Positions 20,287 through 22,830 of a DNA stretch of 46,740 nt are shown here, in pieces. Positions within the stretch are counted from its first letter, which is position 1, and every line of letters starts with the position of its first letter. The stretch comes from Gemmatimonadota bacterium (lineage in GTDB: Bacteria; Gemmatimonadota; Gemmatimonadetes; Longimicrobiales; Gaopeijiaceae): positions 1-46,740 of the forward strand of contig VYAQ01000229.1 of the NCBI GenBank assembly GCA_009844885.1, given 5' to 3'. Both the position numbers and the translations under genes were made by a program. The notes under the pieces are model-generated. The model did no database searches and was not told where the DNA came from. It was given only the letters and a program-made list of their open reading frames with translations.

Positions 20287-21171
20287 GTGGAAACGCCCAT
20301 GTTCGCCGCCACGCCTCTCAATCGACGGAGCGACCGCAACCAGAGCGTCGCGAAGGCCGTGTTCGGCCTCATGACGGTGGTTCTCGTGATTCCGGTGCTG
20401 CTGATCATCGGCACTCTGGTGGTCAAGGGTGCGCCGGCCATCTCCTGGGAGTTCCTGTTCACGGCGCCCAGGAACAACATGACGGCGGGCGGGATATTCC
20501 CCGCGCTGGTCGGTACCATCTGGCTGGTTGTAGTCGCGCTCTTGGCGTCAGTGCCGGTCGGCGTGGCCGCAGCCCTCTATCTGAGCGAGTACGCGCCGGA
20601 CAACCTGCTGACGAGGGCCATCAATCTCGCCATCGTCAACCTGGCGGGAGTGCCCTCGATCGTGCACGCGCTCTTCGGATTCGGCGCCTTCGTACTCTTC
20701 TTCAACATGGGGCAGTCGATCCTTGCGGCCAGCCTTACTCTGGCCGTCATGACACTGCCCGTCGTGATTGTTGCCACCCGCGAGTCACTCCAGGCGGTGC
20801 CGCACGCGTTCAGGGAGGCGTGCTGGAACATGGGGGCGACCCGCTGGCAGACGATCCGGAAGGTGGTGCTTCCCAATTCGATCAGCGGGATTCTCACCGG
20901 TGTGATCCTCGAGGTTTCGCGGACGTCCGGAGAGACCGCGCCGATCATGTTCACGGGGGCAACCGCATTCCTGGCCTTCCTGCCCGAGAGCGTGTTCGAC
21001 CAGACGATGGCCATGTCCTACCACCTGTACTACATCGCGACCCAGGCAACCGCTGACGTGCCCGAGGAGCTTACCTACGGCGTGGCCCTGGTCCTGATCG
21101 CGATCGTGCTGATGATGAACGCGGTCTCGATTGCCTTCCGGGTCTACCTGCGGGGCCTGAAGAAGTGGTAG
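20287..21171 (+). CDS. pstA: Phosphate ABC transporter permease PstA
   Basis: This 294-residue second permease subunit pairs with PstC. It has about six membrane helices, the NLAGVPSIVHALFGFGAF motif (about 118-135), the EAA coupling loop FREACWNMGATRWQTIRKVVLP (about 175-196) and SRTSGETAPIMFTG. The start is GTG at 20287, or ATG at 20299. Its last codons overlap the start of the first ATPase gene. Confidence 0.93.
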   Translation: METPMFAATPLNRRSDRNQSVAKAVFGLMTVVLVIPVLLIIGTLVVKGAPAISWEFLFTAPRNNMTAGGIFPALVGTIWLVVVALLASVPVGVAAALYLSEYAPDNLLTRAINLAIVNLAGVPSIVHALFGFGAFVLFFNMGQSILAASLTLAVMTLPVVIVATRESLQAVPHAFREACWNMGATRWQTIRKVVLPNSISGILTGVILEVSRTSGETAPIMFTGATAFLAFLPESVFDQTMAMSYHLYYIATQATADVPEELTYGVALVLIAIVLMMNAVSIAFRVYLRGLKKW

Positions 21172-22034
21172 ACGGGTCGCCCGCGCTGGACGGGTCGGGG
21201 GCGCTGGGCGGATCGCCCGCGCTGGACGTGGCGGCGGCACCCGCGACCGTCAATGCCGGCACGGGCCCGCTCTACGGGGAGCCTCCCATCATCGAGGTGC
21301 GGGACCTGACGATTGCCTACGATGGCCAACCCGCGTTGCGGGACATTTCGCTGGACATTTTCAGGCACGAAATCTTCGGGATCATCGGTCCCGCGAACAG
21401 CGGCAAGACGTCATTCCTGCGCGCGCTCAACCGGATGGACGGCTTCAATCCGGGCATGGACGTGCGGGGAAGCATCCGTCTCAACGGGAAGGACGTCAAC
21501 GACTGGCGCAACGTTTACGCGCTGCGCAGCAGGATCGGGGTCGTGTTCCCCTTGCCGGTGGGTCTGCCGTTGACCGTGTACGACAACGTGGCCTTCTCGC
21601 CGCGGCTGCGCGGGATTCGCAAGAAGGTCGACCTGGACGAAGTGGTCGAACGGTGCCTGACCCGCGCCGCGCTGTGGGACGAGGTCAAGGACCGGCTGGA
21701 TTCGCTGGGGAGCCTGCTCTCCGGTGGCCAGCAGCAGCGCCTGACGATCGCGCGCGCGCTGTCGCAGGAACCGGAATTGCTGCTCCTGGACGAGTTTTCG
21801 ATCGCGGTCGACCCGGTGACCACCATGCGTATCGAGGATGTCCTCCGGGAGCTTCGCTCCGAACTGACGATCGTATTGGTGACGAACCTGGTGCAGCAGG
21901 CGCGCCGGCTGGCCGACCGCACTGCCTTCTTCCTGATGGGCGAAATGCTCGACATCGGGGTCACCGAGGATCTCTTCGAAGGCAAGGTCACGGACGAGCG
22001 CACGACCGGCTACATCGAGGGGCGCTATGGCTGA
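21165..22034 (+). CDS. PstB-like ATPase 1: intact LSGGQ but no Q-loop Gln or switch His
   Basis: This 289-residue ABC ATPase is related to PstB. Walker A is GPANSGKT (75-82), the signature is a full LSGGQQQR (185-192), and Walker B with catalytic Glu is LLLLDE (205-210). Two switch residues are missing: the Q-loop reads VVFPLP (Pro129 where MVFQ has Gln), and the H-loop reads LVTNLVQQ (Asn241 where PstB has His). The D-loop is SIAVD instead of CSALD. An unusual 40-residue N-terminal extension contains SPALD repeats. The start GTG overlaps pstA, and the stop overlaps the second ATPase gene. I infer that it forms a heterodimer with that second ATPase and supplies the working signature motif. 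Confidence 0.88.
   Translation: MVDGSPALDGSGALGGSPALDVAAAPATVNAGTGPLYGEPPIIEVRDLTIAYDGQPALRDISLDIFRHEIFGIIGPANSGKTSFLRALNRMDGFNPGMDVRGSIRLNGKDVNDWRNVYALRSRIGVVFPLPVGLPLTVYDNVAFSPRLRGIRKKVDLDEVVERCLTRAALWDEVKDRLDSLGSLLSGGQQQRLTIARALSQEPELLLLDEFSIAVDPVTTMRIEDVLRELRSELTIVLVTNLVQQARRLADRTAFFLMGEMLDIGVTEDLFEGKVTDERTTGYIEGRYG
21177..21228 (+). repeat. 16-bp direct repeat in the PstB1 N-terminal extension
   Basis: The same 16 bases (TCGCCCGCGCTGGACG) occur at 21177-21192 and 21213-21228 and encode two copies of SPALD. The repeat accounts for part of an extension not normally seen in PstB, so it may be a recent local duplication. Confidence 0.8.
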
Positions 22035-22830
22035 CGAACACCACGGCGACCATGGCGACCATGGCCCCTACGCCATCGAAACCCGGGGCCTGAACCTCTG
22101 GTACGGGGACTTCCAGGCCCTGTACGACGTCGATCTGGAGGTGAAGCAAGGAATCATCACCTCGATGATCGGGCCCTCCGGCTGCGGCAAGACCACACTC
22201 TTGCGCACCTGCAACAGGATCATCGAGCGACTGGGCTACGTGCGCACGACCGGGAGCGTGAGCATTCTCGGCCACGACGTCTTCGCCGACGGGGTCGAAC
22301 TGGTCCAGGTGCGCAAGCGCATCGGCATGGTCTTCCAGCGCCCGAATCCGCTGCCGATCTCCATCAGGGACAACGTCCTGTTCGGCTTTCGGCTGCACGA
22401 GGCGCGGCTGCGGAAGGTGTCGGCGGCCGAGGAAGACGAGATCCTCGAGTCCTCGCTGCGACAGGTCCTCCTGTGGGACACGGTGAAGGACCGGCTGGAC
22501 AAGCCCGCGACCGGCCTGTCGCTGGAGGAGCAGCAGAAGCTGTGCATTGCACGGCTGTTGCCCGTGAAGCCGGAAGTGCTGCTGATGGACGAGCCCTGCT
22601 CGGCGCTGGACCCGGCCGGGACGGAGGCGGTCGAGGAGCTGATCTGGAAGCTGCGTGGCGACTACACGATCCTGATCGTGACGCACAACATGGCGCAGGC
22701 GCGAAGGGCGTCCGACGAGTGCGTGTTCATGCTGCTCGGAAGGATCATCGAGCACGGCCGCACCGACGAGGTGTTCCTCAGCCCGGAAAACTCCCAGACG
22801 GCGGACTATATTGAGGGGCGCTACGGCTGA
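22027..22830 (+). CDS. pstB: PstB-like ATPase 2: full catalytic residues but degenerate signature
   Basis: This 267-residue ABC ATPase is the closer match to canonical PstB. Walker A is GPSGCGKT (49-56), Q-loop MVFQRPNP (Gln104), Walker B LLMDEP with Glu189, D-loop CSALD, and H-loop IVTHNM (His220). The signature reads LSLEEQQK (164-171) in place of LSGGQQQR, so both Gly and the Gln of LSGGQ are lost. The N-terminus is His/Asp-rich (HHGDHGDHG, 5-13) and could bind metal. The gene overlaps ATPase 1 by 8 bases and both end in the same YIEGRYG. I infer that its Walker site pairs with the LSGGQ of ATPase 1 to form the single competent ATP site of the phosphate importer. Confidence 0.9.
   Translation: MADEHHGDHGDHGPYAIETRGLNLWYGDFQALYDVDLEVKQGIITSMIGPSGCGKTTLLRTCNRIIERLGYVRTTGSVSILGHDVFADGVELVQVRKRIGMVFQRPNPLPISIRDNVLFGFRLHEARLRKVSAAEEDEILESSLRQVLLWDTVKDRLDKPATGLSLEEQQKLCIARLLPVKPEVLLMDEPCSALDPAGTEAVEELIWKLRGDYTILIVTHNMAQARRASDECVFMLLGRIIEHGRTDEVFLSPENSQTADYIEGRYG

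Follow-up and report, generated by a model that had tools for sequence, protein, structure and literature searches.

Two adjacent genes for PstB-like ATPases, here termed pstB1 and pstB2, lie in a 46,740-nucleotide stretch of DNA from a Gemmatimonadota bacterium (contig VYAQ01000229.1; the whole stretch is called the window, all coordinates refer to it, and all genes of the cluster are located on its plus strand), and their products have lost motifs for ATP hydrolysis in a complementary manner. We propose, with a probability of about 0.82, that PstB1 and PstB2 form an obligate heterodimer, in which one ATP site hydrolyses and the other is degenerate, and that this dimer powers an otherwise ordinary importer composed of PstS, PstC and PstA. 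The motif pattern can be read directly from the genes; a physical heterodimer, hydrolysis at only one site and transport of phosphate are what we infer from the sequences.

PstB1 (21165..22034; GTG start at 21165, TGA at 22032-22034) comprises 289 amino acids. It possesses a Walker A motif (GPANSGKTS, residues 75-83), the Walker B residues Asp209 and Glu210 and an LSGGQ signature (residues 185-189; 21717..21731), but the Q-loop Gln is replaced by Pro129 (codon CCC, 21549..21551) and the switch His by Asn241 (codon AAC, 21885..21887). PstB2 (22027..22830; ATG at 22027, TGA at 22828-22830; 267 amino acids) shows the opposite: Walker A (GPSGCGKTT, residues 49-57), Gln104 of the Q-loop (22336..22338), Asp188, the catalytic Walker B Glu189 (22591..22593) and the switch residue His220 (22684..22686) are all in place, but LSLEE (residues 164-168; 22516..22530) replaces LSGGQ. 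A preliminary description of this DNA had already noted both signatures, the two substitutions in PstB1 and Gln104, Glu189 and His220 of PstB2, and its coordinates, reading frames, named residues and residue numbers proved correct. The two proteins share 40% identity across 255 aligned columns. Neither of them carries the full PstB motif set of Walker A and B, Gln, LSGGQ and His, as PstB1 lacks Gln and His and PstB2 lacks the GGQ of the signature. Both score below the cut-off of the PstB equivalog family TIGR00972 (274.6 bits for PstB1 and 313.3 bits for PstB2 versus 343.2 bits), which is still the top family for both, and annotation relying on the curated cut-off overlooks the two genes.

In the mechanism we propose, PstB1 and PstB2 would serve as the two unlike nucleotide-binding subunits of a single Pst importer (PstS-PstC-PstA-PstB1-PstB2). 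When the motifs are paired in trans, one composite site holds all canonical motifs, while the other lacks several of them. The former would be built from the Walker motifs, Gln104, Glu189 and His220 of PstB2, is predicted to be completed by LSGGQ of PstB1, and would hydrolyse ATP. The latter, consisting of the PstB1 Walker motifs devoid of Gln and His and of LSLEE of PstB2, would bind ATP with poor or no hydrolysis, and is probably static or regulatory by analogy with asymmetric ATP-binding cassette (ABC) exporters. A homodimer of either protein would lack a complete site. The preliminary description had likewise predicted one full and one doubly degenerate composite site, which the sequence checks favour. 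At the second site, Gln, His and the signature provided in trans are all altered; its description needs correction in that the catalytic Glu is retained there.

The remaining components of a Pst importer are encoded directly upstream in the same operon, and all three exceed their curated cut-offs: the phosphate-binding protein PstS (17303..18259; TIGR02136, 226.3 versus 206.6 bits), and the permeases PstC (19134..20279; TIGR02138, 262.9 versus 196.45 bits) and PstA (20287..21171; TIGR00974, 263.7 versus 193.45 bits). The open reading frame of PstC overlaps the preceding phoU gene and the true start of PstC is unsettled. Both permeases contain the R..GET motif, which is conserved in 116/116 PstC and in 131/132 PstA rows scoring above 300 bits (repeat fetches included), the sole PstA exception being locus L137. 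The role of the charged R..GE residues of PstC and PstA is known from mutants of Escherichia coli.

Conservation of the motif pattern was assessed in 103 distinct pairs, compared over the last 200 residues of both genes and obtained from those 131 loci that had a single B1 and a single B2, each at least 230 amino acids long. The labels B1 and B2 follow phmmer scores against the window proteins (B1 >300 and B2 >250 bits for the named loci, >280 bits in the set fetched later); therefore, divergent members may have escaped and the labels are biased towards the motifs of the window. In B1, the Pro, the Asn, LSGGQ, the Walker A Lys, the Walker B Asp and the catalytic Glu are each present in 103/103 pairs; moreover, DEF replaces DEP and Ile replaces the Ser of the D-loop. 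In B2, the Lys, Asp, Glu and Gln are likewise found in 103/103 pairs each and the His in 102 (one Tyr), positions 3 and 4 of the signature are invariably Leu and Glu (103/103 each), and position 8 of Walker A is Ser or Thr, like in canonical PstB. Variable are positions 4 and 5 of Walker A in B1 and positions 2 and 5 of the signature in B2. Parts of the degenerate site thus vary, while most positions of the canonical site are fixed, a distribution that appears to fit the heterodimer model in part. As Pro and Asn of B1 and Leu and Glu of the B2 signature are fixed, the degenerate site is specialised and has not simply decayed. None of the B1 and B2 proteins read, as labelled by similarity to the window proteins, has the motifs of its partner intact; separately occurring genes of this kind had been named in the preliminary description as contrary to its model. 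A PstB2 with Tyr at the otherwise fixed switch His is encoded at locus L205 (6204-7160).

The 80 named loci are the best 80 of 517 relatives (589 stretches matched) and were selected by means of two peptide patterns, GGQQQRLT and LDEFSIAV; LSGGQ and DEFSIAV are consequently predetermined in part, which does not apply to the losses of Gln and His or to those of B2. All 80 B1 proteins of these loci carry Pro and Asn. A B2 of more than 150 residues is present in 77 loci and missing in L110, L169 and L175; it has Gln in 77 and His in 76 cases (one protein ends before the His), and its signature reads LSLEE (68), LSLEQ (8) or LPLEA (1). The same losses were seen in 45 B1 and 43 B2 proteins of 46 loci that had been retrieved by similarity, with no motif pattern applied; they include the one B2 with Tyr for His already mentioned, and their B2 signatures are LSLEE (32), LQLEQ (6), LTLEE (2), LSLEA (2) and LTLEQ (1). 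The titles of the best 80 loci name Gemmatimonadota, Acidobacteriota, Planctomycetota, groups of Pseudomonadota, SAR324 and one Bacteroidetes metagenome-assembled genome (MAG). Ratios of nonsynonymous to synonymous substitution rates (dN/dS), determined against four genomes of the same genus, are 0.070-0.101 for B1 and 0.035-0.088 for B2, indicating purifying selection. Judged by this sequence record, the asymmetric design of the motifs is ancient and has been maintained by selection. The idea that it is peculiar to a single genome was rejected, because the pattern recurs across loci of the same genus, of the family and of other phyla; the arrangement is maintained in bacteria of several phyla.

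Among 59 genomes of close relatives (own, same genus, family and order), the tandem pair was found on a single contig in 21/22 other genomes of the genus and in the family members G027, G032 and G033. It is split across two contigs in G034, and B2 is cut at the contig end in G029. Including the window, all 27 B1 proteins of this genus and family set have Pro, LSGGQ and Asn, and all 26 whole B2 proteins have Gln, LSLEE and His. In G010, a genome of the same genus with 93% completeness, the pair was not found (E<=1e-90 in the phylum-wide search). A PstB scoring above the family cut-off occurs in 27 of the 59 genomes, none of them within the genus, and the 27 best that were fetched carry canonical motifs. 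In the Gemmatimonadota phylum, searched at a threshold of E<=1e-90, B1 was detected in 32/200 genomes and B2 in the same 32, adjacent in all; in the class of a Dechloromonas genome both genes occur in the same 5/274 genomes; and in the phylum of an Acidobacteriota genome B1 occurs in 22/199 and B2 in 21/199, the exception (G629) having a B2 fragment at a contig end. Summed over the three groups, this amounts to 59 B1 and 58 B2 in 673 sampled genomes, adjacent to each other, which answers the call of the preliminary description to look for co-occurring pairs in related genomes. In four of 11 genomes searched with TIGR00972 at E<=1e-60, the pair provides the only two matches (Dechloromonas SSD3, Planctomycetes Poly30, Acidobacteriota bin48 and Thiotrichales bin102; the records are titled chromosome or complete genome). 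Among the best 80 of 517 relatives, MAGs of Accumulibacter and Dechloromonas also possess the pair. In wastewater treatment, Accumulibacter is the organism that accumulates phosphate, and the pair therefore bears on phosphate uptake in such bacteria. At one locus (L208 101-985, genome G575), a third ATPase gene directly follows pstB2; its Q-loop, signature and switch are altered (LVGTPAAV, GLTTSMILQL and ATND), but its two Walker motifs seem intact.

A looser search of the same 199 genomes from the phylum of an Acidobacteriota genome yielded pairs with milder asymmetry. Seventeen regions were fetched, of which 11 contain such pairs and six do not (L257, L261, L263, L265, L267 and L268); two couples among the 11, L252/L253 and L254/L266, are near copies and hence do not count as independent. 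In their B1-like proteins, Gln is replaced by Ala (9) or Ser (2), and in all 11 His is changed to Asn and LSGGQ is retained. The B2-like proteins have Gln and His in 11/11 cases and signatures of the types L[ST]GEQ, LSPEQ, LAPEQ, LSLEQ or LSLEE, with Glu at position 4 throughout (11/11). In a quick tree of 84 rows, B1 and B1-like proteins fell on one side of a branch (support of 100 in the Shimodaira-Hasegawa-like approximate likelihood ratio test, SH-aLRT) and B2 and B2-like proteins on one side of another (97). A larger quick tree without the intermediates likewise had a single branch each for B1 and B2 (SH-aLRT of 99 for both); both trees were midpoint-rooted with SH-aLRT as their only support, and joining of long branches was flagged as a risk in the larger one. 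Since the milder pairs sit on the same two branches as the strong ones, the sequences suggest one origin for both. Most simply, PstB would have been duplicated once; one copy would have lost His and Gln early, the other the second Gly of its signature, and further change would have come later. The B2-like signatures match this graded order only roughly, as L258, which sits on the deepest B2 fork, already has LSLEQ. The series from mild (LSGEQ; Gln to Ala; His to Asn) to strong asymmetry is visible on one pair of branches, and each of its steps is accessible to testing. At L255 (2-7681), two consecutive Pst gene sets are present, the first with a canonical PstB and the next with a milder asymmetric pair.

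Among solved structures, the sequences closest to both window proteins are the PstB chains of entries 9k3x, 9k3y and 9k3s, which we take, from their sequence, to be E. coli PstB. The E. coli PstSCAB system has the same PstS, PstC and PstA parts and the same PstB fold, but each entry contains two chains of one PstB sequence with intact LSGGQ, Gln and His (in 9k3s, Gln replaces the Walker B Glu), whereas the window encodes two nucleotide-binding domains (NBDs) with complementary losses. One canonical and one degenerate composite site are also combined in asymmetric heterodimeric ABC exporters such as BmrCD, PatAB, TAP/TmrAB and TM287/288, mostly with an altered catalytic Glu. The system described here shares this layout, but would be an importer with separate NBD genes and a retained Glu. 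The preliminary description had mentioned the design as known from asymmetric exporters; this needs correction insofar as asymmetric sites exist in importers as well, namely in the fused NBDs of RbsA and NupO with one degenerate site (PMC11466899). RbsA and NupO, according to the same paper, belong to type II importers, have both NBDs in one polypeptide and lack the Walker A Lys in the degenerate half, in all of which the window pair differs. Tandem pstB genes are known from Firmicutes. In Enterococcus faecalis, as in other Firmicutes, two adjacent pstB genes likewise reside in one pst-phoU operon, and unequal roles of the E. faecalis pair were shown genetically; there, both proteins have intact motifs (PMC12096839), in contrast to the 40% identical window pair with its opposite losses. 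Neither an asymmetric PstB pair nor a fusion of PhoU with an ArsC-like domain, as in the cluster of the window, was found described in the open-licence literature, and a term search of a 2026 survey of PhoU clades (PMC13170248) gave no hit for "fusion" or "arsenate reductase". Thus, tandem pstB genes and degenerate ABC sites are already known, while the asymmetric PstB pair is new as far as the open-licence literature shows. It is still an open question why a dead ATP site is retained in ABC transporters, and most work on it has been done on exporters. The present system offers an importer, separately encoded NBDs and a known class of substrate.

The PhoU protein of the cluster (18250..19332; 360 amino acids) carries a C-terminal domain resembling ArsC and low-molecular-weight (LMW) protein tyrosine phosphatases, in which Asp takes the place of the catalytic Cys. 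It matches Pfam PhoU (PF01895), but stays below the cut-off of TIGR02135 (105.9 versus 130.25 bits). PF01451 matches 23/36 PhoU homologues at E<=1 (best 1.4e-08); the window protein itself is unmatched. Its structural model (predicted local distance difference test score of 90.5) matches the PhoU structure 4q25 (template modelling score, TM, of 0.92 by target) and also arsenate reductases (1jf8, TM 0.79 by target). Both folds are known, but here they are fused in one protein without the CX5R motif of active LMW phosphatases and ArsC: in 81 distinct PhoU rows (above 150 bits; L153, L204, L205, L206 and L211 score lower and were left out), the nucleophile position is occupied by Asp (78), Gly (2) or Glu (1) and never by Cys, and the Arg is kept in three. 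PhoU was seen in 60 of the 66 loci among the best 80 that have PstS, PstC, PstA and two ATPases. It was not seen in the other six (L107, L149, L152, L156, L168 and L176), nor in L062 and L080; in L062 and L107, both from close relatives, the pair operon shows no PhoU between its PstS and PstC genes. PhoU is of ordinary length in L208 and L210. The fusion is therefore not universal, but it is kept in most pair operons. Next to the milder pairs, PhoU has ordinary length (220-232 amino acids) in 8/11 cases and is out of view in three; hence the ATPase asymmetry seems to be older than the PhoU fusion.

The genome of the window possesses a second full Pst operon on another contig (C338; L021 1541-8299). 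It includes PhoB-like and PhoR-like genes, whose best matches stay below their cut-offs, a PstS just below cut-off (204.9 versus 206.6 bits), PstC and PstA above cut-off, an ordinary PhoU above cut-off and a single PstB (321.8 bits). This PstB has LSAGQ as signature and Tyr at the position of the switch His, and the accompanying PstA reads GAA instead of the GET found elsewhere. Lack of R..GE in PstA combined with its presence in PstC was seen in all six operons of this second type that were looked at. Going by these residues, the operon is possibly a sensor-only Pst system. The preliminary description had named a canonical pstB elsewhere in the genome as evidence that would contradict it; a second PstB does exist, but it lacks the switch His and belongs to an operon with its own PstC and PstA. 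As a hidden partner of the window proteins it was rejected on the same grounds, its operon also having its own PstS and PhoU. Three genomes of the same genus (G010, G006 and G009; loci L084, L088 and L091) also have this second operon, and its PstB is degraded further there: Gln is changed to Glu or Ala, the signature to LSAEE or LPAGD and His to Cys; G010, in which the pair was not found, is among them. In L185, the PstB of the second operon has kept the switch His.

Several observations weigh against the heterodimer with a single hydrolysing site. PstB1 has retained its catalytic Glu, and residual hydrolysis at the degenerate site is therefore possible; Pro and Asn of B1 are as invariant as catalytic residues; the exchange of Ser for Ile in the D-loop of B1 would touch the supposedly canonical site; and further PstB-like genes are present in the other seven of the 11 genomes searched and in the window's own genome. 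Retention of the Walker A Lys, Asp and catalytic Glu in all 103 B1 proteins could also mean that both sites of the heterodimer hydrolyse ATP, the substitutions tuning rate or coupling with neither site being degenerate. This reading is improbable, albeit worth keeping in sight: Gln, His and the signature in trans are all altered at one and the same site, and Glu occupies position 4 of the B2 signature in 103/103 pairs as well as in 11/11 milder pairs. In CFTR, replacement of the same signature Gly by Asp (G551D) blocks function. Decay of one or both genes as duplicates under relaxed constraint, to which the absence of several textbook motifs might point, is next to inconceivable; decay or chance was rejected because of dN/dS values of 0.035-0.101, and the residues that took the place of the canonical ones do not vary between phyla. 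Two homodimers in alternative PstC/PstA complexes, i.e. tandem paralogues with partly separate roles, would have a precedent in E. faecalis, where the tandem pstB genes are non-equivalent and excess PstB2 substitutes for PstB1 (PMC12096839). However, neither homodimer would have a complete site, and a single gene alone was seen only once in the 673 genomes, at a contig end; separate homodimers are very unlikely and were rejected on the co-occurrence of B1 and B2.

A different role of the whole complex also has to be considered. It might be a phosphate sensor rather than an importer, with the odd ATPases locking it in one conformation that is read by the PhoU fusion, while transport takes place elsewhere. 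PhoU fused to an ArsC-like domain without the catalytic Cys would suit such a function, as would the second Pst operon of the genome, and in E. coli, opposite Pho signalling states are seen in PstB mutants whose dimer is predicted to be fixed in either the open or the closed form (PMC5775613). By analogy with these mutants, an asymmetric dimer could also alter signalling. Nevertheless, one composite site is complete and R..GET is kept in PstC and PstA, four genomes yield no PstB match beyond the pair at E<=1e-60, genes for PstS and a porin accompany the pair, and the losses in PstB and PstA belong to the other operon, beside the PhoB- and PhoR-like genes. A mere sensor is accordingly unlikely, and we prefer the importer driven by a PstB1-PstB2 heterodimer. 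More tentatively, this heterodimer may define a separate Pst branch (titles of five phyla plus SAR324), in which the second site would hold ATP unhydrolysed and, in most such operons, the dead ArsC-like domain of PhoU would read the asymmetric dimer, placing transport and signalling on different ATP sites of one complex; we regard this extension as conceivable but rather doubtful.

On the plus strand, the gene order of the cluster is SPFH/Band 7, Porin_O_P, PstS, PhoU, PstC, PstA, the two PstB-like ATPases and an amidohydrolase-like gene. The SPFH/Band 7 protein (14736-16046) and the outer-membrane porin (16225..17289; PF07396, 36.1 versus 20.9 bits) are thus encoded upstream of pstS. Among the best 80 of 517 relatives, the nearest named relatives of the window are MAGs of Gemmatimonadota and Longimicrobiales. 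The Porin_O_P gene is present in 15 of 21 loci from the same genus, cut off by contig ends in five and absent from one (L062).

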